Of a DNA stretch of 64,000 bases, positions 14,003 to 24,510 are shown in pieces. This DNA comes from Streptomyces ardesiacus. Its GTDB lineage: Bacteria; Actinomycetota; Actinomycetes; Streptomycetales; Streptomycetaceae. The notes beneath the pieces were generated by a model. It was given only the letters and a program-made list of their open reading frames with translations, searched no databases and was not told the DNA's origin. How positions within the stretch are numbered: the stretch's first letter is position 1; the number at the start of each line of letters is the position of its first letter. Location: assembly GCF_003112575.1 (NCBI RefSeq), contig NZ_BEWC01000001.1, positions 620,001 to 684,000 of the forward strand, given 5' to 3'. The position numbers and the translations under genes were made by a program.

Positions 14003-14995
14003 TCAGCCGGCCGCGGGCCCCCGCCCCCGGCGCGAGAACCACGCCGCGACGACCGCCCCGGAGACGTTGTGCCACACGGAGAACACCGCCGCCGGCAACG
14101 CCGCCAGGGGACTGAAGTGCGCGGTGGCCAGCGACGCGGCGAGGCCGGAGTTCTGCATCCCGACCTCGAAGGCCATCGCGCGGCTGCCGGGCTCGCCCAG
14201 CCGTCCCAGGCGCCCCGCGCCGTAACCGAGGGCCAGACCGAGCCCGTTGTGCAGCACGACGGCGACGAAGACCAGACCGGCGGCCGACTTGATGGCGTCC
14301 GCGCTGCCCGCCACGACCACCGCCACGATCACGGCGATGGTCAGCGCGGAGAGCCAGGGCAGCGCCGGCAGCGCCCGCTGCACGTACCGCCCCGCGAGGA
14401 GCCGTACGACGACGCCCGCGAGGACCGGCAGCAGCACCGTCTTGAGGATGTCCGTGACCATGGACCCGGCGTCCACCGGGAGGTACTCGCCGGCCAGCAG
14501 CAGCGTCAGCGGCGGGGTGACCAGCGGAGCGACCAGCGTCGAGACGGTGGCCACGGAGACCGACAGGGCGACGTCGCCGCGGGCGAGGTAGGTCACCACG
14601 TTGGACGCCGTACCGCTGGGCGCGCAGCCCACCAGGATCACGCCCGCGGCGAGCTGCGGCGGAAGGTCGAGCAGGTGGGCGACGGCCCAGCCGAGCCCCG
14701 GCATGATGACGTAGTGCGCGCCCAGCCCCAGCGCCACCGCCCACGGACGCTTCGCGACCCCGCGGAAGTCCTGCGGGGTCATGGTGATGCCCATGCAGAA
14801 CATCACGACACCCAGCAGGTACGGCACCGCCCCGCTCCACCCGGTGAAGCTCCCGGGGAGCAGCAGGCCGAGCGCGCCGGCCAGGAGGACGAGGACCGGG
14901 AAGACGGTGACGGCGCGCCGCGCGGAGCGGTCACCGGTCGGGTCGGTGGCGAGGGGGTCGTTTCGTTCTGCTCGTTCAGTTCTTTCGGTACGCAC
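14003..14995 (-). CDS. bile acid:sodium symporter (BASS) family transporter
   Basis: A 330-residue membrane protein with nine or ten hydrophobic helices of the SBF/BASS type. Characteristic motifs are GVVMFCMGITMTPQDF, GVILVGCAPSGTASNVVTYLARGDVALSVS and EVGMQNSGLAASLA. Members import organic anions with sodium, and the substrate here is unknown. The start is uncertain. GTG at 14995 is chosen, but the frame stays open upstream across the antisense strand of the tRNA and no strong ribosome site is seen. Confidence 0.85.
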   Translation of the reverse strand: MRTERTERAERNDPLATDPTGDRSARRAVTVFPVLVLLAGALGLLLPGSFTGWSGAVPYLLGVVMFCMGITMTPQDFRGVAKRPWAVALGLGAHYVIMPGLGWAVAHLLDLPPQLAAGVILVGCAPSGTASNVVTYLARGDVALSVSVATVSTLVAPLVTPPLTLLLAGEYLPVDAGSMVTDILKTVLLPVLAGVVVRLLAGRYVQRALPALPWLSALTIAVIVAVVVAGSADAIKSAAGLVFVAVVLHNGLGLALGYGAGRLGRLGEPGSRAMAFEVGMQNSGLAASLATAHFSPLAALPAAVFSVWHNVSGAVVAAWFSRRGRGPAAG

Positions 14996-15101
14996 CGTGC
15001 GAGACAACGCCTGGTGGGCGGCCCGGTGCAAGGCCGTCTCGTCATGTGACCGGATGAGGTAGGCTTGACCAGCGCGATCACGGCAGACGTGGATCGCACA
15101 C

Positions 15102-15175
<74 letters not shown>

Positions 15176-15194
15176 CTTTACGAAGTCGCAGGTC

Positions 15195-15231
15195 AGGGGT
15201 CATGTCGGAGAATGTCCGACATGACCCCTTG
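15195..15231 (+). terminator. Rho-independent terminator of second tRNA-Pro
   Basis: A perfect 15-pair stem, AGGGGTCATGTCGGA with its complement, encloses a five-base loop GAATG and ends in TTG, 19 bases after the tRNA. It differs from the terminator behind the first copy, so the duplicated unit is only the tRNA itself. Confidence 0.85.
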
Positions 15232-15377
15232 ATCGTTCTCGGGGCCTTCGGAGTTCAACTCACGGGCCGGGCCCGCGAAGCACCCCGGGACGGTCACCAC
15301 GAAGAGCGCGCGCTTCCGCGTACGGTCGCCCGGACGAACCGCCGTGCCCGCCGCCCCCCAGCGGCGGACACGGCGTG

Positions 15378-15422
15378 GGCCGCGGAACGTCTGCCCTCCC
15401 CCGAAGGAGACGTTCCGCGGCC
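15378..15422 (-). terminator. terminator hairpin of metalloprotease gene
   Basis: A perfect 15-pair inverted repeat GGCCGCGGAACGTCT / AGACGTTCCGCGGCC with a 15-base loop lies 54 bp beyond the stop of the leftward metalloprotease gene. The rest of 15232-15476 shows no gene. Confidence 0.7.
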
Positions 15423-15476
15423 GGCCCCCGGCGCCGGTCCGTGGCCGCGGCGCCCGGGCGGCTGCGAGCCGTGCGG

Positions 15477-16556
15477 TCACCAGTACATGACCGCCGTCTC
15501 ACCCGCACCCCACGAGGAGTACAGGCGCACCCGGACGACATAGCGGCGGCCCTTGACGAAACGGGCCCTGATCGTGGCGTTGCGGGGGCTTCCTCCGTCG
15601 TCCTGTCCGGTGAAGTAGCGGGGCACGCCGTCGCGCTCCTCGAAGACGACCACGACGGCGTCGCTGTCGCCGAAGGTGCCCACCGTGTACTCGCGGGTCT
15701 CCGGCGGATCCACCCGGAAGTCGGCCTGCTCGCCGGGCCCGAGGCCCAGAGGCACCGAGCGGAAGGGCACCAGCGGACCGGGCCGTCCGGTGGGCGGGTA
15801 CCAGCGCAGGGCGAACTCCTTGTCGGCGGCGGAGAGGACACCGGGCGGGTGCAGGCCGGAGCGGTAGTGCTCGGGCTCCAGGATCAGGCCCGACGGGAAG
15901 GGATACTCCATGATCGACTGCGGGTCCCAGACCGGGCCGTTGGCCTCGTCGTCGTCGAGCTTGCGCAGGATGTTGTGGAAGGTCCGCTCCCGGCTCCAGT
16001 GGTTGGGCGGGCCCGCCAGCTCGGCGTAGACGGCCTCGTCGTCCCAGAGGATCCCGGCGTACGGGCTCTGGTGCTCGTGCAGCATGCCGAGCGCGTGGCC
16101 GATCTGGTGCAGGGCCGTCGCCCGCTCACCCGGTGCGGTCAGGTCCCAGCCGAAATTCATCGTGCGGTCGTTCAGGCCCACCCGGAGCGCGTCCCTGCCC
16201 ACCGCCGACCAGGACCCGTCGCCCGACCGGAAGCCGATGCGCAGCTCCGCCTCCGACCGGTCGCGGACCTCCCTGAGGTCGAGCCCGATGCCGAGGTCCC
16301 GCCACTCCCGGAAGCAGTCACGCACCACGTCCCGCTGCTCCTCGGTCCCCGCCCACGCGTTGCGCCGCGGCCGGCCGGTGCCCGGCATCGGGACCACCGA
16401 GGTGTCGACGTCGCCGCCGAGGAAGCAGTAGTGCAGCACGGTTCCGTTGACCCACATCCGCTGCCCGCCCACGAGCGCGGCGGCGCGCTCGGCGGCCAGC
16501 CCGGGGGCGAGCACCGGGGCCGGCTGCCGCGGCAGCGAGCAGTAGCGTGCGGTCAT
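15477..16556 (-). CDS. astacin-like (M12) metalloprotease homologue with Glu-to-Gln change
   Basis: A 359-residue protein resembling bacterial M12A/astacin-type zinc peptidases. The zinc motif is HQIGHALGMLHEH (His150, His154, His160), with the usual catalytic Glu replaced by Gln at 151. A Met-turn-like SIMEYPF follows. The C-terminal third (about 240-359) resembles a beta-rich domain ending in RYVVRVRLYSSWG. There is no signal peptide, so it may be cytoplasmic. The zinc ligands are intact, but peptide hydrolysis would be expected to be weak or absent. It is divergent from the LuxR gene across a short dyad-containing gap. Confidence 0.8.
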   Translation of the reverse strand: MTARYCSLPRQPAPVLAPGLAAERAAALVGGQRMWVNGTVLHYCFLGGDVDTSVVPMPGTGRPRRNAWAGTEEQRDVVRDCFREWRDLGIGLDLREVRDRSEAELRIGFRSGDGSWSAVGRDALRVGLNDRTMNFGWDLTAPGERATALHQIGHALGMLHEHQSPYAGILWDDEAVYAELAGPPNHWSRERTFHNILRKLDDDEANGPVWDPQSIMEYPFPSGLILEPEHYRSGLHPPGVLSAADKEFALRWYPPTGRPGPLVPFRSVPLGLGPGEQADFRVDPPETREYTVGTFGDSDAVVVVFEERDGVPRYFTGQDDGGSPRNATIRARFVKGRRYVVRVRLYSSWGAGETAVMYW

Positions 16557-16604: not shown

Positions 16605-16635
16605 TACTCAAGTCACCGTGTATCACGGGTGAGTA
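16605..16635. promoter_or_regulatory. dyad between metalloprotease and LuxR genes
   Basis: Nested inverted repeats: TACTCA at 16605 pairs with TGAGTA at 16630, and inside them CCGTG-TAT-CACGG forms a perfect 13-bp palindrome at 16616-16628. They lie in the 72-bp divergent gap and touch the first possible start codon of the LuxR gene. Operator function is inferred from position only. Confidence 0.5.
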
Positions 16636-18464
16636 GGCCGACTCATGTTCCCGTGACGACTTCTACTCCGCGGGACGCGAGGACACTGGACGCCCCCTGG
16701 CCGTTCACCGGGCGGGCGGACGAACTGGAGCTGGTGCGCAGGTCCGTGGCGGCCGGACGGGGCGGCCTCGTGGTGACGGGACCGGCCGGGTCGGGCAAGA
16801 CCAGGCTCGTCACGGAGGCCGTGCGCGGCGCGGACTGCGCCCGGGCCGCCGGGACGCCCGAGGCCCGGGACATCCCCTTCGCCGCCTTCGCCCACCTGCT
16901 GCCCGAGACCGTCACCCTGCACCGGGCGGTGCACCTCCTGTCCGGCGTACGGCTGCTGCTGGTCGACGACGCCCATCTGCTGGACGACTCCTCCGCCGCC
17001 CTGCTGCACCAGCTCGCCGTACACGGCCGCACCCGGCTCCTGGTCGTCGCCACCGACGGCACCGCCGTCCCGGGCGCGGTGTCCCGGCTGTGGTCCGGGG
17101 AACTGCTGCCGCGCCTCGCCCTGGAACCGCTGCCCCGCGAGGAGACCGCGGAACTCCTCACGGCCGGGGCCGGCGCCCGCCTGGAACCGCTCACCGTGGA
17201 CCGGCTGCACCGCCTGGGCCGCGGAGACCTCCGGCTGCTGCGCGAGCTGCTGACCGCCGTGCGCGAGGAGGGCCAGCTCGTGCCGGTGCCCGGCACGGGC
17301 CTGCGGGCGTGGCGGGGACCCGTACCGGTCACGCCGGTGGTCCGCGAGCGCACCGCCCGGGTCCTGGACCGCGCCCGCGCGGAGGAGCGGGAGACCCTGG
17401 ACCGGCTGGCCTTCGCCGAGCCCCTGCCCCTGGACCTGAACCGGGACTCCCTCGACCTGCGGGCCCTGGAGGACCTGGAGGCCGAGGGCCTGGTCACCGT
17501 CGACGACCACGGCGCCGCCCGTCTCGCGCACCCGCTGCACGGCCCCGTCCTGCGCGCCGCCGCAGGCCGGCTGCGGGCCCGGCGCCTGGCTCGCACCGCG
17601 GACCGGACCGGGCCCGCCCTGGAGGCGGAACGGGCCGCCCTCGCCGGGCGCGTCGCGCGGGCGGACGTACGGCCGGCGGAGACACCCGTCGGGGACTGGC
17701 TGGCCGCCGAGGGAGCCCCGCTGCCGGCCCCGTACGCGGCGCTGCGGGCCCGGTACGCCCGGCTGGGGGGCCGGCTGCACGACGCCGCGGCCTGGGCCCG
17801 CGAGGGTCTGCGGGCCGGCCACGACGATGCCGCCTGCCGCGACGAACTCGCCCTGGCCGTGGCACAGACGGGCGACGACCCCGCTAGGTGCGGGGGTACG
17901 GCGGGTGCCTGCGCCGCCTGGGCCGCCGCCGCGCGGGGCGACCTCGACGCGGCGGTCCGGGCGGCCGCCGCGGGCGACCCCTACGACGCCGTCCGGTTCG
18001 GCGCGCCCGAGCATGCGGCCGGCCGGCTGACCGGCGTCTTCGCCGCGCACGCCGACGCCCTGGCGCGCGGCGACGGACCGGCGCTCGACCGGGTCGCCGA
18101 GGAACTGGAACGGCGCGGCTTCCTGCTGTTCGCGGCCGAGGCGAACGCGCAGGCGGTACGCGCCCACCGTGAACCCCGGGCCGCCCGCACCGCCCGTACC
18201 CGTGCCGCCGCCCTCGCCCGGCGCTGCCAGGGTGCCCGCACCCCCGCGCTGTCCGGCCTGGTGCTCGGCGAGCTCACCGCCCGCCAGCGGCAGATCGTCA
18301 CGCTCGCGGCCGCCGGCCTGAGCAACCGGCAGATCGCGGAGCGGCTCACCCTCTCCGTCCGCACCGTCGGCAACCACCTGTACGGCGCCTACACCCGCCT
18401 GGGCGCGGGCGACCGGGAGGCGCTGCCCTGGCTGATGGAACTGCCCGAACCGCTGCCCGCCTGA
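16629..18464 (+). CDS. LuxR-family regulator with N-terminal ATPase domain
   Basis: A 611-residue regulator. The N-terminal P-loop ATPase has Walker A GPAGSGKTRL and Walker B-like LLLVDDAHLLDD. The middle is helical and Ala/Arg rich. The C-terminus has a LuxR HTH (LTARQRQIVTLAAAGLSNRQ to RTVGNHLYGAYTRLG). It resembles the LAL class but is shorter than the usual 850-1000 residues. The start is uncertain: GTG 16629 would overlap the dyad and could be leaderless, while GTG 16653 gives 603 residues. Target genes are unknown; the adjacent metalloprotease is the obvious candidate. Confidence 0.85.
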   Translation: MSRPTHVPVTTSTPRDARTLDAPWPFTGRADELELVRRSVAAGRGGLVVTGPAGSGKTRLVTEAVRGADCARAAGTPEARDIPFAAFAHLLPETVTLHRAVHLLSGVRLLLVDDAHLLDDSSAALLHQLAVHGRTRLLVVATDGTAVPGAVSRLWSGELLPRLALEPLPREETAELLTAGAGARLEPLTVDRLHRLGRGDLRLLRELLTAVREEGQLVPVPGTGLRAWRGPVPVTPVVRERTARVLDRARAEERETLDRLAFAEPLPLDLNRDSLDLRALEDLEAEGLVTVDDHGAARLAHPLHGPVLRAAAGRLRARRLARTADRTGPALEAERAALAGRVARADVRPAETPVGDWLAAEGAPLPAPYAALRARYARLGGRLHDAAAWAREGLRAGHDDAACRDELALAVAQTGDDPARCGGTAGACAAWAAAARGDLDAAVRAAAAGDPYDAVRFGAPEHAAGRLTGVFAAHADALARGDGPALDRVAEELERRGFLLFAAEANAQAVRAHREPRAARTARTRAAALARRCQGARTPALSGLVLGELTARQRQIVTLAAAGLSNRQIAERLTLSVRTVGNHLYGAYTRLGAGDREALPWLMELPEPLPA

Positions 18465-18487: not shown

Positions 18488-21400
18488 TCAGGCCGCCCCG
18501 AACGCCGTGAACGCCCACCCCGTGGCCTGGTGCACCGCGTCGCCCGGCAGCGAGGCCCGCGCGTCACGGAGGGCCTCCGCCAGCGACAGGCCCGCGTCCA
18601 GGCCCTTGTGCAGCGCGAGCATCAGCGGCACCACGGCGGCGTCGTTGACCGGCGCGGTGCACGCCACCACGCCGGCCGTGCCCAGCGGCAGCAGCGCGGT
18701 GACGAGGCCGAGCAGCTCGTCGGCGCCGACGGACGCGAAGCGAGCGGTGTCGCAGCAGGGCAGGATGATCCGGTACGGGCTGCGGTCCAGCCGCTCGAAG
18801 TCGTGCACGATGAGCGGCCCGTCCGCCATCCGCAACGACGAGAACAAAGGGCTGTCCGCGCGGAACGTCCCGTGCGCCGCGATGTGCGCCAGCGCGGCCC
18901 CGTCCAACTCCCGCAACACCCTCGGCACCCGTGCCTCGTCCCCTTCCAGCACGGTGGGCCCGCCCCGCCCGGCCGAACCGCCGGGAAGCCCCGCCGCACG
19001 TGCGCGCGGGACACGTCGGTCCGCCCCCTCCGGTCCGGCCCACGGCCCGGGTCCCCACGCGCCCTCGCCGCCCGCCGTGCCCGGCCTCCTCCGGCCGGCC
19101 GTGGCGCGCGGACCGTCCGGGGAGCCCGTCGCGGACGGGGCCGCGTCGCCCGCCGCCGCGGACGGGGCCGCGTCGCCCGCCGCCGGGGCCGGGAGCCCGC
19201 CGCCCGCCGCCGGGGGCCGTGCCCAGCGACCGGCCGCCCCGGGAAGGGGCTCCTCGTCGGACGGCCGGAGCCGGGCCGGCCGGGCCGGAGCCGCCGTGCG
19301 GCTGCCGTCCCCGGTCCCCGGGAGCCGGTCCCCGCGGTCGGCCGTCCCCGCCCCGTCTCCGGCGCCGGGGAGCCGGAACGGGCCCGCGACACTCGCCCCG
19401 GGCCGGCCGCCGGTGCCGGCCGCCCGAGCCTCCGGGCCGACGACGACCGGGCCGGGCGGGGTGTCGTCCTTGTTCTCGGGCGGGTGGTGGGTCGGGGTTT
19501 CGCTGTCCGGTGTGCGTGGGGCTTCGTGGCGTGTCGTGGTGGCCGGGTCGGGCGGGGTGTCGTCCCCGTCCCCGGGCGGGCGGTGGGCCGGGGTTTCGTT
19601 CCCCGGTGTCCGTGTCGCCCCGTACCGTTCCGCGAGTTCGGGGATCTCGGCGCCGCCGCTCGCCAGGCCGGGGCCGCGGACCAGGACCTGGCGGCCGCCG
19701 GGCGGGGGAGCGGTGTCCTTCGCGCGCAGCCAGCTGCTCGCCGACGGCGACACGCTCAGGACCCGTTCGCGCAGGGCGGGCAGCAGGGCCCACGGCACGC
19801 GGTGCAGGCGGCCGGGCGGGACCACGACGACCGGGCCGCAGCCGAGGTGCGCCGCGGCGGGGCCCAGCAGCAGGTGCTGCAGCCGCGCGCCGGCCGCCTC
19901 CACCAGCGGCAGCCGCGCCTCCGCGCCCGGATGGGCCAGCCGTCGCAACCCCGCCTGTACGTGCTCCGCCTCCGCCTCCGCCTCGGCCAGCATCCCGGCC
20001 TCGAACCGCCGCACCCGGCCCTGCCCGCACAACAGCACGTGCACCCGCCCGTCGAGCACCGCCAGCTCCACCAGCCGCACCTCCTCGCCCAGCCGGTGCA
20101 GCAGCCGCCCCACGTCGAACCGGTCGCCGTCGTGCGGTGCCTCGCCCCGCATGTGCAGGGTGCGGGAGCGGACCTCCCGTTCCAGGCGCCGCTGTTCGCG
20201 CTCCAGCGCGGGCGCGGGCCGGCCGCCTTCCGAACGGGCCTCCTCCGCGCGGGCGGCGAGTTCCCGGAACGCCGTCATGGCGGTCAGCAGCACCGGATCG
20301 GCCGGCGGCCGGGCCGGCGGCGCCGACAGCACCGTCGCCCGCCAGCGCTCGCTCCAGCCCAGCAGCCGCCGCGGCCCGCCGGAGACCAGCGACGCCCGCT
20401 GCGCCAGCGCCGCCAGCTCCGCGCCCTGCGCGGTGGCCCGGGCCCGCAACTCCGAGGCGCCCAGCGTCATCCGGTGGTCGTCCAGGACGTCCAGACCGCG
20501 CCGGCAGGCTTCGAGCACGCCCCGCGCCGACCCGGCCGCCCGCGCCCGCAGCGCCTGCGCCGCCCAGCCCGTCATCCGCGCCAGCGGCGGACCGCCGTGC
20601 CTGCTGCGCGCGGCCACCGCCAGATGCCGTTCCGCGTCCGCCGTCCAGCCGAGGTCCAGCGCGATCCGGCCCGCCAGCAGCGAAGCCTCCGGCGCGGCGG
20701 GCGCACCGAAGGCCGCCAGCCGTTCGGCCACCGCCGCCGCGTCCGCGACCAGCCGGCCCGACCCGCGCCCCGTGGCGGCCCGTGCCTCGAGCAGCACCAG
20801 CCGGGCGTGCGTCTCGTACCAGGTGCGCCGCTGCCCGGCGAACAGCCGCACCGCCACGGCCGCGCGCGCGAGCGAGGTCTGCGGGTCGCCCGCCAGCCGG
20901 GCCGCCCGCGCCGCCACCAGCAGCAGCTCCGCCTTGCGGGTGGACTGCCCGCCGATCCCGTCCAGCGCCGCGACCGCCCCGTCCGCCTCCGCCAGCGCCT
21001 CCGGCGCCAGCCCCGCCGCCATCAGCACCTCGCAGCGCCGGATGGTGAGCATGAACGTCGGCGTGCCCAGCTTCGCGTACCGCTCCTCCGCCTCGTCGAG
21101 GAGCCGCAGCGCCGCCGGCACGTCACCGGCGCGGAACGCCGCGAGCCCCCGGCTCTCCACCGCGTCCGCCTTGTCGTGCTCCTGGCCCGTGGTGTCCCAC
21201 AGCGCCTCCGCCGCCGTGAAGTCGGCGTTGGCCCGCTCCACCGAGCCCTGCGCCAGGTGCACCGTCGCCCGCAGGGTCAGCGCCCGCGCCGTCCAGATCA
21301 CGTCGTCGGCCTGGCGCAGCACCGGGATCGCCCGCCGTACGTCCTCCAGCGCCTCGCCGTGCCGGCCCAGGACCCACCACACGTACGCCCGCCGGAACAG

Positions 21401-21754
21401 CACCCGCGCGCGCGTGTGCCCGCTCCCGCGCGCCACGCCCCGCTCGAACGCGGCCAGCCCCGCCCGCGTACGCCCGGAGTGCACCAGCGCCACCCCGAGC
21501 GTGGCCAGCACGTCCGCCTCCCGCTCGGCCGAATCGGCGCGGGCGGCGAGGTCCCGGGCGCGCCGCAGGTGGGCCAGGGCCCGCCGGGTGTCGCCGAAGT
21601 CCCGCTGCCAGATGCCGATCACCTGATGGGCGACCGAGGCGTGCAGCGGCGAGGGATCGGCGCCGAGCAACTCCTCCGCCCGCGTCAGCGCTTCGCCCGG
21701 GGCGGCGAACACCATCGGCAGCAGGTCGAGAACCGGGTCGTTTCGCGCCGTCAC
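18488..21754 (-). CDS. TPR-CHAT caspase-like protease homologue
   Basis: A 1,088-residue protein. Residues about 20-520 are TPR-like helical repeats (for example RRALAHLRRARDLAARAD, AALRLLDEAEERYAKLG). Residues about 560 to the end form a CHAT domain, the caspase/separase-like fold. VPPGRLHRVPWALLPAL is typical, and the catalytic pair is His961 in AHIAAHGTF and Cys1001 in LPCCDTAR. A Pro/Gly/Ala-rich insertion of roughly 215 residues (about 712-928) interrupts the domain just before TVLEGDEA. The start is GTG 21754, and the frame stays open further upstream. It is divergent from a subtilisin gene by 151 bp, suggesting a proteolytic signalling pair. Confidence 0.85.
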   Translation of the reverse strand: MTARNDPVLDLLPMVFAAPGEALTRAEELLGADPSPLHASVAHQVIGIWQRDFGDTRRALAHLRRARDLAARADSAEREADVLATLGVALVHSGRTRAGLAAFERGVARGSGHTRARVLFRRAYVWWVLGRHGEALEDVRRAIPVLRQADDVIWTARALTLRATVHLAQGSVERANADFTAAEALWDTTGQEHDKADAVESRGLAAFRAGDVPAALRLLDEAEERYAKLGTPTFMLTIRRCEVLMAAGLAPEALAEADGAVAALDGIGGQSTRKAELLLVAARAARLAGDPQTSLARAAVAVRLFAGQRRTWYETHARLVLLEARAATGRGSGRLVADAAAVAERLAAFGAPAAPEASLLAGRIALDLGWTADAERHLAVAARSRHGGPPLARMTGWAAQALRARAAGSARGVLEACRRGLDVLDDHRMTLGASELRARATAQGAELAALAQRASLVSGGPRRLLGWSERWRATVLSAPPARPPADPVLLTAMTAFRELAARAEEARSEGGRPAPALEREQRRLEREVRSRTLHMRGEAPHDGDRFDVGRLLHRLGEEVRLVELAVLDGRVHVLLCGQGRVRRFEAGMLAEAEAEAEHVQAGLRRLAHPGAEARLPLVEAAGARLQHLLLGPAAAHLGCGPVVVVPPGRLHRVPWALLPALRERVLSVSPSASSWLRAKDTAPPPGGRQVLVRGPGLASGGAEIPELAERYGATRTPGNETPAHRPPGDGDDTPPDPATTTRHEAPRTPDSETPTHHPPENKDDTPPGPVVVGPEARAAGTGGRPGASVAGPFRLPGAGDGAGTADRGDRLPGTGDGSRTAAPARPARLRPSDEEPLPGAAGRWARPPAAGGGLPAPAAGDAAPSAAAGDAAPSATGSPDGPRATAGRRRPGTAGGEGAWGPGPWAGPEGADRRVPRARAAGLPGGSAGRGGPTVLEGDEARVPRVLRELDGAALAHIAAHGTFRADSPLFSSLRMADGPLIVHDFERLDRSPYRIILPCCDTARFASVGADELLGLVTALLPLGTAGVVACTAPVNDAAVVPLMLALHKGLDAGLSLAEALRDARASLPGDAVHQATGWAFTAFGAA
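19453..19640 (-). repeat. two 96-bp repeats within the CHAT insertion
   Basis: Two imperfect copies of a 96-bp (32-codon) unit start with GGGCGGGGTGTCGTCC at about 19455 and 19551 on the + strand. They encode DDTPPDP/DDTPPGP-containing segments. A second small repeat (24-bp units encoding AAGDAAPSA) lies near 19130-19190. Both fall in the low-complexity insertion, which keeps the reading frame. Confidence 0.8.
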
Positions 21755-21905
21755 CCCACGGATGGTAGTGCTCCGGAACCGAGCCCCACAGGTTCGAGTC
21801 TGTATCAATCGGCCGCCCCGGGACTCTGATTGACGACCGCCGTCACCACCGCGGTCACGACCGCGGCCCGCACCGCCGTCACCGCCGCCCCAGTGGAGGA
21901 CACGC

Positions 21906-23339
21906 ATGGCACCACAGCGATTCCGCGAGCAGTTCGACCAGATCCAGCGCTCGATGCCCGGCGTCCCGCTGGCGATGGGCCCGGACGACTCCGCCGAGTT
22001 CCTCTACGAGAAGGGCGTCGTCCTGGCCCGTGACGGCGAGGAGGCCCGCCTCGTCGAGGACACCGTGCGCGACCACTTCACCACCATGTCCGGCCTGACC
22101 CCCGACCACGTGCGCCGGGCGGGCCCGGAGACCAACCGCACCGGCATCACCCGCATCCAGGTCGCCGACCCCGGCCAGGGCGGCGGCGAGGGCGACCCCA
22201 CCGTCGGCCACGCCCTGCGCTCCCTGAGGACCATGGAGGGCCGCGCGGGCCGCCGGCTGATCAGCCGCAACCACGTCGTCTCCATCGCCGTCAACGCCTG
22301 CCCCGGCGACGAACCCGTGCCCGTCCCGCTGACCGAGCCGCCCAACCCGGCCCCCGCCGGGACGCCGTACGACGCCGGGACCGCCGTGGGCGTCCTCGTC
22401 CTGGACACCGGGCTCATGCACGACTACCGGTCCTACCCGCTGCTGGCCCACACCGAGGGCGACGCCCAGATCAGGGAGTGCGACGACGACGGCGTCCTGT
22501 GCCAGTACGTCGGACACGGCACCTTCATCGCCGGGCTGGTCGCCGCCGTCGCGCCCAACACCGGGGTGACCGTCCGCAACACCCTCAACGACGCGGGCGC
22601 CATCCTGGAGTCCGAGCTGGGCGAGAAGCTCTTCGAGGCCGTCGACCGGGACGGCTGGCCCGAGATCCTCAGCCTCTCCGCCGGCACCTCCAACGGCCGC
22701 ACCGACGGCCTGCTCGGCGTGCACGCCTTCATGGAGGAACTGCGCGAGCAGCGCACCCTGCTGGTCGCCGCCGCGGGCAACAACGCCAGCGCCACGCCCT
22801 TCTGGCCCGCCGCCTACGCCACCCTGCCCGGCTGGGAGGACGCGGTGCTGTCCGTCGGCGCGCTGCGCTCCGACGGGGAGTTCGGCGCCTGCTTCAGCAA
22901 CCACGGCGCCTGGGTGCGGGCGTACGCCCCCGGCGAGCGCCTCACCAGCGCCCTCACCGGCTTCGGCACACCCGTGCCCTACGTCTACCAGCACTCCACC
23001 TACGACGCCTGCCGGTTCGGCTTCGCCTACCCCTGCACCTGCCAGTACCCGCGCCACCACGGGGTGCTGAGCGAGCCGGGGGAGGCGCCCGCCAAGCCGG
23101 ACCAGGTGATGTTCGAGGGGCACGCCCAGTGGAGCGGCACCTCCTTCGCCACCCCGGTGGTCGCGGGCCTGGTCGCCTCCCACATGACGGCGCACCGGGA
23201 AAGCGATCCCCGCGCGGCCGGCCGGCAACTGCTCGCGGCGAACAAGGAGTACGCGGAGGTGCGCGGCGCGCACGTGCCCGCGCTGCTCCCGCCCACCTGG
23301 CACCCGGTCTCCGTCGACTCCTCGGCCGGCGGGTCGTGA
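21906..23339 (+). CDS. S8 (subtilisin) family serine peptidase, cytoplasmic
   Basis: A 477-residue subtilase. The triad is Asp167 in VLVLDTG, His204 in GHGTFIAG and Ser413 in SGTSFATPVVAG, with the oxyanion Asn in AAAGNN. About 130 residues precede the catalytic domain and contain no signal peptide, so this is not an exported subtilisin. The stretch CRFGFAYPCTCQYPRHH just before the Ser is Cys-rich and might bind metal or form a lid. GGAGGA precedes the ATG. It is followed by a sigma factor and is divergent from the CHAT protein. Confidence 0.92.
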   Translation: MAPQRFREQFDQIQRSMPGVPLAMGPDDSAEFLYEKGVVLARDGEEARLVEDTVRDHFTTMSGLTPDHVRRAGPETNRTGITRIQVADPGQGGGEGDPTVGHALRSLRTMEGRAGRRLISRNHVVSIAVNACPGDEPVPVPLTEPPNPAPAGTPYDAGTAVGVLVLDTGLMHDYRSYPLLAHTEGDAQIRECDDDGVLCQYVGHGTFIAGLVAAVAPNTGVTVRNTLNDAGAILESELGEKLFEAVDRDGWPEILSLSAGTSNGRTDGLLGVHAFMEELREQRTLLVAAAGNNASATPFWPAAYATLPGWEDAVLSVGALRSDGEFGACFSNHGAWVRAYAPGERLTSALTGFGTPVPYVYQHSTYDACRFGFAYPCTCQYPRHHGVLSEPGEAPAKPDQVMFEGHAQWSGTSFATPVVAGLVASHMTAHRESDPRAAGRQLLAANKEYAEVRGAHVPALLPPTWHPVSVDSSAGGS

Positions 23340-23375
23340 AGGTCCTGGCGGCGGTCGGAACGACCCACTCCACGG

Positions 23376-23396
23376 CGTACGATGGCACGTCGTACA
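23376..23396. promoter_or_regulatory. inverted repeat before sigma factor gene
   Basis: CGTACGA, seven bases, TCGTACA: seven-base arms with one mismatch, 15 bp before the sigma start. It may be an autoregulatory or promoter element, with position as the only evidence. Confidence 0.4.
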
Positions 23397-23410
23397 CGAG
23401 GGGTGGGACC

Positions 23411-23986
23411 GTGGACCGTGCAGATGTCGGGGCGCTCGTCCAGTCGGCTGCCGACGGGGACGCGGCGGCCTGGAAGTCACTGGTGGACGGACTCGGCCCG
23501 CTCGTGTGGTCCGTGGCCCGTTCGCACGGGCTGTCCGACGCCGACGCGCACGAGGTGTACCAGACCGCCTGGTTCCGGTTCGCCCAGCATCTGGGGCGGA
23601 TCCGGGAACCGGAGAAGACCGGCTCCTGGCTGGCCAGCACGGCACGCAACGAGTGCCTGAAGCTGCTCAAGGCCTCCAGGCGGTGGACACCGACCGACGA
23701 TCCGCAGTTGCTCGACCGGCCGAGCGAGGACCGCACGCCGGAGGAGTCGGTGCTCGACTCCGAGGAGGCCGCCGCGCAGACCGAGCGCGTACGGCTGCTG
23801 TGGCAGGAGTTCGAGGAACTGGGCGAGCGGTGCCGCCAGTTGCTGCGGGTGCTGATCTCCTCGCCACCGCCCAGTTATCAGGAGGTGTCCGCCGCGCTGG
23901 GCATCGCGGTGGGCAGCATCGGGCCGATGCGCCAGCGCTGTCTGCGCCGGCTGCGTGCCCGGCTCGAGGCACGGGGGACGAAATGA
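23411..23986 (+). CDS. ECF-like RNA polymerase sigma factor
   Basis: A 191-residue sigma-70 family protein. Region 2 spans about 15-85, with LVQSAADGDAAAWKSLVDGL at its start and AHEVYQTAWFRFAQHLGRIR in region 2.2-2.4. Region 4 is a HTH (SYQEVSAALGIAVGSIGPMR). Regions 1 and 3 are missing, as in ECF factors. GAGGGG precedes GTG 23411. An upstream GTG at 23336 overlaps the S8 stop and would add 25 residues. It overlaps the next gene by 4 bp. Confidence 0.88.
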   Translation: MDRADVGALVQSAADGDAAAWKSLVDGLGPLVWSVARSHGLSDADAHEVYQTAWFRFAQHLGRIREPEKTGSWLASTARNECLKLLKASRRWTPTDDPQLLDRPSEDRTPEESVLDSEEAAAQTERVRLLWQEFEELGERCRQLLRVLISSPPPSYQEVSAALGIAVGSIGPMRQRCLRRLRARLEARGTK

Positions 23987-24510
23987 GCGACCTGAACGAC
24001 GAGTACGACGCATACGACGAGTACGACGGGGCCGACGGCCACGGCGCGTCCGGCGCGTACGACGAGCGGGACGAGGAACTGCACGACGGGCTCGTGGAGG
24101 AGGAACTGCGGCAGGCCGCCGCGATCCTGGACCCGGTCCCGGCCGGGCTGCGGCGCGTCGCGGTCGACGCCTTCGTCCTGCGCGACCTGGACGCCCGGAT
24201 CGCCGAGCTGACCTTCGACTCGCTGGTGGACGGCATCCCCGTCCGGGGCGAGACGGACCCGCCGCGGATGCTGACGTTCAGCACCGACGCGGTGACCGTC
24301 GACGTCGAGGTGACCGCGGACGGCCTGATCGGCCAACTCCTGCCGCCGGGCCCCGCCGGGGTCGAGGTGCTCAGCGGCCCGCGGGCGCACGCGCGGCTGA
24401 CGGCCGACGACATGGGCCGGTTCGCCGGCGAGGCACCGCCCGCCGGCCCGTTCGCGCTGCGGCTGCGAACCGGCCGGGAGGTGGTCGTCACGGAGTGGCT
24501 GCGGGCCTGA
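23983..24510 (+). CDS. acidic protein coupled to the sigma factor
   Basis: A 175-residue soluble protein with no recognised domain. The first 40 residues are strongly acidic (DEYDAYDEYDGADGHGAS) and the rest is an alpha/beta-like region with TFSTDAVTVDVEVTADGLIGQLL and VVVTEWLRA at the C-terminus. The start ATGA overlaps the sigma stop, so the two are translationally coupled. This is typical for anti-sigma factors, adaptors or targets, but no anti-sigma zinc motif or membrane segment is seen. Confidence 0.75.
   Translation: MSDLNDEYDAYDEYDGADGHGASGAYDERDEELHDGLVEEELRQAAAILDPVPAGLRRVAVDAFVLRDLDARIAELTFDSLVDGIPVRGETDPPRMLTFSTDAVTVDVEVTADGLIGQLLPPGPAGVEVLSGPRAHARLTADDMGRFAGEAPPAGPFALRLRTGREVVVTEWLRA

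Follow-up and report, generated by a model that had tools for sequence, protein, structure and literature searches.

What is achieved by four neighbouring genes that encode two proteases, a sigma factor and a small acidic protein? Such an arrangement lies in a 64,000-nt stretch of Streptomyces ardesiacus DNA (NCBI RefSeq assembly GCF_003112575.1, contig NZ_BEWC01000001.1, positions 620,001 to 684,000 of the forward strand), which is called the window here and is numbered from its first letter. The genes encode a protein with tetratricopeptide repeats (TPRs) and a CHAT cysteine protease domain, a subtilisin-like S8 protease, an extracytoplasmic function (ECF) sigma factor and an acidic protein that we call D. 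In this study, we found that the quartet is real and conserved. A single signalling pathway is the probable role of the four genes, since they remain together over the phylum and have a promoter signal in common. We see about an even chance that this pathway is a cytoplasmic, CRISPR-independent, protease-controlled sigma switch.

The four genes were found as a sequence-only reading of this DNA had placed them (Table 1), including the catalytic residues, the gap and the overlap described below. The CHAT protein has a CHAT domain with a His961/Cys1001 dyad, which makes it a CHAT protease, and the dyad was retained in the aligned relatives (His in 75/75 and Cys in 76/76). This protein is presumed to be the sensor or trigger. 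The residues Asp167, His204, Asn292 and Ser413 are present in the S8 protease, which thus has the Asp/His/Ser triad of S8 subtilases, and its N-terminus has no hydrophobic signal-like stretch. The CHAT and S8 genes are divergent, with a start-to-start gap of 151 bp. The score of the sigma factor against TIGR02937 was above the cut-off, placing it in the sigma70-ECF superfamily. The start of D overlaps the stop of the sigma gene by 4 nt, as ATGA.

Table 1. Positions of the quartet, absR2 and the predicted promoters in the window
Feature	Position	Strand	Details
Predicted promoter TGTATCA-N16-CTC before absR2	16619..16644	+	Exact match
absR2, LuxR-type repressor, SCO6993 homologue	16653..18464	+	NCBIfam TransRegAbsR2, 999 bits
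TPR-CHAT cysteine protease	18488..21754	-	GTG start; 1088 aa; Pfam CHAT, 80 bits, plus TPRs
Predicted ECF promoter TGTATCA-N16-CTC before S8(-sigma-D)	21801..21826	+	Exact match
S8 subtilisin-like protease	21906..23339	+	ATG start; 477 aa; Pfam Peptidase_S8, 59 bits
ECF sigma factor	23411..23986	+	191 aa; TIGR02937, 74.2 bits (cut-off 42.9); ECF54-like by neighbourhood
Protein D	23983..24510	+	175 aa; pI 4.2; candidate anti-sigma factor

The conservation of the quartet was examined by a D sequence search over 246 genomes of the phylum Actinomycetota and a D profile search over 297 genomes of the class. The phylum search gave relatives in other classes, many of them beside CHAT, S8 and sigma genes, and the profile matched in 106/297 genomes of the class. 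Genes in the regions around the D matches were predicted with a simple codon-usage caller, and profiles for each of the four proteins were applied to them. All four genes lay within 7 kb in 51 of the 99 loci of this D-anchored set, in many families and in nine distinct orders or orientations. A sigma-anchored set of 80 named loci contained all four genes in 42, for example in Catellatospora, Amycolatopsis, Kribbella, Actinoplanes, Thermomonospora and Streptomyces. The quartet was also present in metagenome-assembled Patulibacter, Solirubrobacteraceae and Acidimicrobiia, and isolates of Solirubrobacter had sigma, D and CHAT. A chance neighbourhood was ruled out by this recurrence over the phylum in different orders. 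A fifth universal gene was sought by clustering of the neighbours, which gave only core-genome synteny (sepH, a tdk-like gene and ferrochelatase, and icd in Streptomyces; named from reading the sequences). The sequence-only reading had proposed one functional module and had made this depend on the genes staying together beyond close relatives. This proposal stood, since the quartet recurs in both anchored sets and is kept over the whole phylum in shuffled orders.

We then compared the partners within the loci. In 73/84 D-anchored loci, D followed the sigma gene in the same orientation and at most 30 nt away, and the overlap was exactly 4 nt in 35; in the sigma-anchored set, this arrangement was seen in 48/62, with the 4-nt overlap in 24. 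Sigma and D were found without CHAT and S8 in 32 of the 147 loci holding both (20/84 D-anchored and 12/63 sigma-anchored), counts that include some loci cut by contig ends. Seventeen loci had sigma, D and CHAT without S8 nearby, and five had sigma, D and S8 without CHAT. The earlier suggestion that the acidic protein is the partner of the sigma factor was borne out by this pairing, which is kept in the loci without either protease and is usually translationally coupled. Read most simply, these gene arrangements make D the partner of the sigma factor; CHAT would act upstream as a protease, and S8 would be an accessory protease or one that is induced.

D of the window alone gave no Pfam or NCBIfam match. 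PF13620 (CarboxypepD_reg) was matched in 14/24 D relatives scanned, with E up to 1 and a best value of 1.6e-7. In the AlphaFold2 model of window D (mean predicted local distance difference test score, pLDDT, 82), an acidic disordered N-terminus and helices 28-49 and 54-65 are followed by a confident, carboxypeptidase-regulatory-like beta-sandwich at residues 72-175. In the most divergent D relatives, the N-terminus is longer and four helices (9-16, 22-34, 37-54 and 63-77) are predicted in it, modelled with a modest mean pLDDT of 69. In this model, the order of four short helices and then a separate domain resembles that of anti-sigma domains, and one D relative gave a weak RskA_N match (E 0.043) below the cut-off. 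These results suggest D as a candidate soluble anti-sigma factor. A peptidase function of D was considered and rejected, as no catalytic domain was matched and the regulatory-like beta-sandwich is not an enzyme domain. In a divergent group of loci (L084, L085, L086 and L089), D has an extended helical N-terminus that carries the anti-sigma-like motif WLEGRLP, and the S8 start tends to be secretion-signal-like.

A shared promoter signal was found in front of the module genes. Alignment of the Streptomyces CHAT-S8 intergenic regions showed TGTATCA and TGACGA at fixed spacing, and TGTATCA-N23-TGACGA was present upstream of S8 in the 12 module-bearing genomes tested and in 0/2 module-less controls. 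In other families, GTATCA, 16-17 nt and then CTC recurred before S8, sigma or D. The window contains exactly two sites of TGTATCA-N16-CTC, one before S8, at a place kept in the 12 module-bearing genomes tested, and one before absR2. Among 99 module loci, the motif had a spacer of 16 nt in 31 and of 17 nt in 7, and any other length from 12 to 22 nt occurred in at most 3. The motif with the 16-nt spacer was found before 19/1360 background genes; as each module locus offers up to four genes, the chance expectation per locus is about 5-6%. In the sigma-anchored loci, the motif was present in 39/80, compared with 34/806 background genes. Such a distribution is typical of an ECF promoter under autoregulation. 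The predicted sigma promoter in front of the S8 gene makes S8 appear to be an output or a feed-forward element. A promoter motif before the module genes over the phylum appears to be new.

The second site in the window points to absR2 as a predicted target of the module sigma factor. About 9 nt separate the end of the motif from the GTG start of absR2, so the transcript is probably leaderless. The motif was found before absR2 in 16/17 related Streptomyces loci that hold this gene, and before an AbsR2-like gene in two Streptosporangiales loci (L341, Actinomadura; L342, Thermomonospora). In S. coelicolor, AbsR2 (SCO6993) represses actinorhodin (act) and undecylprodigiosin (red) genes, among them actII-ORF4 and redD, and actinorhodin rose nine-fold when AbsR2 was deleted (PMC9628970). 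From gene order and annotation, we infer that the S. coelicolor module is SCO6994-SCO6997 and that the S8 protease of the window is the homologue of SCO6995. SCO6995, a putative intracellular serine protease, is AdpA-dependent. When its expression was forced, antibiotic production was inhibited with no detectable effect on AbsB, by a route that was left unexplained and was not AbsB degradation (PMC2936110). The SCO6996 protein has been detected in proteomes (PMC9739823).

Further conserved sites of the motif had no protein gene behind them. The intergenic DNA behind them carries ACGGGGGA units, as many as nine in 200 nt, and we treat it as a repeat RNA candidate. It lies in several different genomic places and often ends in a strong hairpin, whose stem has three pairs with two-sided changes, a modest number. 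One example in the same genome outside the window is at G000:C2:479893 (L237/L247), and relatives were found at L215, L222, L224, L234, L238, L239 and L245-L271. We take the G000:C2:479893 site to be downstream of sigQ beside afsQ1, from reading the protein sequences. The density of ACGGGGGA was 4.26 per 200 nt in the repeat region and 0.018 in the flanks; the search pattern itself requires one unit. Of 199 Streptomyces genomes, 24 had the repeat RNA outside the module; D was present in 23 of the 24, compared with 63/199 overall (hypergeometric P about 2e-12, uncorrected for relatedness). The sole repeat-RNA genome without D is a 79% complete assembly. The exact form was present in about a third of the module-bearing Streptomyces sampled and in essentially none without the module. 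A relaxed pattern gave no excess: it was matched in about 8-9 of 40 module-bearing genomes lacking the exact form versus about 10-11 of 40 module-less genomes. Four shared matches of this pattern lie before protein genes and differ in having a GGAAC-type sequence upstream. Rfam gave no significant match for the repeat RNA, and it was not found outside Streptomyces in the 297-genome class sample. A role as a 6C sponge was tried by duplex energy between the repeat RNA and the 6C RNA of the genome; this was -92.8 against a mean of -89.9 (sd 6.7) for mononucleotide-shuffled controls, and showed no excess. Because the energy failed this control, only the 6-nt UCCCCC/GGGGGA complementarity speaks for a 6C link. 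We state the widest version of the model with reserve: it is a doubtful prospect that a CRISPR-free, TPR-CHAT-triggered sigma pathway with an overlooked, proteolysed anti-sigma D has as its output both AbsR2 induction and a new small RNA class whose ACGGGGGA repeats would soak up a C-rich partner, for example the 6C RNA, with UCCCCC loops that match GGGGGA, or the ribosomal anti-Shine-Dalgarno sequence.

How might the four proteins work together? In the switch that we propose, D would hold the ECF54-type sigma factor inactive. The TPR part of the CHAT protein would sense a signal and the CHAT protease would become active. Active CHAT would cut D, directly or through another protease, and free the sigma factor. 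As the conserved sites suggest, the free sigma factor would transcribe the TGTATCA-N16-CTC promoters, turning on S8-sigma-D, absR2 and the repeat RNA. In Streptomyces, the net outcome would be that a stress or developmental signal leads to less antibiotic production. Proteolytic release of the sigma factor is plausible. The circuit would explain the antibiotic effect of SCO6995 through AbsR2, and the published effect is in the direction that the model predicts.

Several points weigh against this switch. Binding of D to the sigma factor and cleavage of D are inferred. At the sequence level, D matched no anti-sigma domain significantly. Fold searches with two D models returned generic Ig/FN3-like sandwiches and listed no anti-sigma structure, with the helical part barely covered. 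That the sigma factor itself, rather than another regulator, uses the motif is likewise our reading of the sequences. Genome-wide raw counts of the short motif were not above a reversed-pattern control, so the case for the motif rests on its conserved positions. Some Streptomyces (L059 and L060) have no absR2 at the module locus. An AdpA-like site lies in the SCO6995 promoter (PMC2936110), so S8 has other inputs. Most S8 relatives have no signal-like N-terminus; it is secretion-signal-like in L069, L085 and L086 and probably in L089. Since S8 looks secreted in some lineages, it cannot be the universal D protease.

The last point bears on the linear cascade of the sequence-only reading, in which CHAT would cleave and activate an S8 proenzyme, S8 would cut D and the sigma factor would be released. 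The catalytic residues are intact in both proteases, and the 150-aa N-terminal extension of S8 could be a propeptide. Over-expression of SCO6995 alone lowers antibiotic production (PMC2936110), and a cascade from CHAT to a second protease is known in type III-B SAVED-CHAT (PMC11229360). However, loci with sigma, D and CHAT that lack S8 outnumber those with S8 that lack CHAT, S8 looks secreted in several lineages, and the predicted sigma promoter on the S8 gene suits an output. We consider this cascade unlikely. A scheme without any anti-sigma factor seems a little less likely again: the proteases would degrade the sigma factor to keep the pathway off, as has been proposed for ECF54 with AntA/ClpXP as precedent (both PMC8999054), and D would be a cofactor or adaptor. 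Its premise is that no anti-sigma candidate exists, yet D, coupled to the sigma gene in nearly all loci, fills this place, and sigma and D occur without the proteases in 32 loci.

The same 32 loci speak against D as the inhibitor or chaperone of one protease rather than of the sigma factor, because D stays with sigma where both proteases are missing; CHAT and S8 also occur as pairs without D nearby (L080, L082 and L302). Acidic beta-sandwich proteins can bind proteases and D is regularly encoded in the cluster, but we hold this role of D to be improbable. An anti-phage or abortive-infection system would be in keeping with the CHAT proteases that act in several immune systems (PMC10028731, PMC9729208). 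The stress or phage response suggested by the sequence-only reading lost its phage part, because the loci are surrounded by core genes (sepH/tdk/ferrochelatase; icd) and PADLOC gave only a generic 'subtilase' model match to S8 and no specific defence protein. Furthermore, no cas genes were recognised among the called genes of the window by reading the translations, and the predicted target absR2 regulates antibiotics. We regard a defence function as very improbable.

Some features of the proteins and their surroundings were observed in addition. The window CHAT protein has a Pro/Gly/Ala-rich low-complexity insert of about 230 residues at about 700-925, N-terminal to the dyad; most of its close relatives are 855-870 aa long and do not have the insert. 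The same genome (G000) encodes four more CHAT-domain proteins outside the module, at C1:417486, C2:849864, C2:1039964 and C5:158899 (L001-L003 and L005). Near-perfect tandem repeat linkers (units TPYPGG, FTSGGP, MYDGHP and GVGYGD) precede the catalytic domain in the S8 relatives L073:9456-10979, L075:9418-11232 and 14720-16402, and L076:10357-11970. Two tandem D/CHAT/S8 sets share one sigma gene in L075:5240-16402. In one family (L128-L140), the conserved core region around sepH, a tdk-like gene and ferrochelatase contains sigma and D, with neither CHAT nor S8 close by. In the window, a cytochrome P450 gene (24538-25761) lies between D and an N-formylglutamate amidohydrolase gene, which directly follows D in the related Streptomyces loci inspected.

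Is the quartet a known system? The sequence-only reading knew of no description, and this is right only in part. No report was retrieved when the literature was searched for the quartet by name, but ECF54 sigma factors had been reported with CHAT and subtilase neighbours. A 2022 review, summarising Casas-Pastor 2021 and Huang 2015, describes proteolytic control without an anti-sigma factor as proposed for ECF54, given its conserved carboxypeptidase, subtilase and CHAT neighbours (PMC8999054). The module loci have the same neighbourhood, with CHAT, subtilase and carboxypeptidase-annotated genes beside an actinobacterial ECF sigma gene. They differ in the sigma-coupled, non-enzymatic D. The reported 'carboxypeptidase' is probably D, because D carries a domain that is named after carboxypeptidases though it is not an enzyme. 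The promoter motif, its targets and the repeat RNA are unmentioned in that review.

The switch also resembles CRISPR-linked systems. The type III-B SAVED-CHAT system has a caspase as second protease and a sigma/anti-sigma output. Its CHAT protease is coupled to that second protease (PMC11229360), whereas the second protease here is a subtilisin and no SAVED domain match was seen. In type III-E Craspase, the TPR-CHAT protease Csx29 cuts Csx30, the inhibitor of CASP-sigma (PMC10028731). Both systems thus have a TPR-CHAT protease and an ECF-like sigma factor, and relief of a sigma inhibitor by cleavage occurs in Craspase and is proposed here. The quartet differs in its extra S8 protease, its chromosomal core location and the lack of a CRISPR effector: no cas genes, and thus no Cas7-11/gRAMP with a CRISPR locus, were recognised in the window translations, and the neighbours of the relatives look housekeeping. 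D has 175 aa with a beta-sandwich and Csx30 has 565 aa; the likeness is one of mechanism. In CalpL/CalpT/CalpS, a soluble protease cuts an anti-sigma factor and frees a sigma factor (PMC11229360); CalpL is a cA4-activated protease of the unrelated Lon family. Caspase-like peptidase genes lie near an ECF sigma gene in the EACC2/caspase-ECF neighbourhoods (PMC8195603), which have a TRADD-N/EACC2 architecture and not the CHAT, S8 and D quartet.

With this analysis, the vague record of ECF54 near proteases becomes a defined circuit that can be tested, in which a candidate anti-sigma factor, a promoter motif and its predicted targets are named. It offers a possible answer to the 2010 puzzle of how forced SCO6995 expression blocks antibiotics without acting on AbsB, and it indicates an undescribed repeat RNA in antibiotic producers. 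These results suggest that the protease-to-sigma logic of CRISPR-linked CHAT systems exists as an ordinary chromosomal pathway over Actinomycetota, and the module may be the stock from which CRISPR systems took parts.

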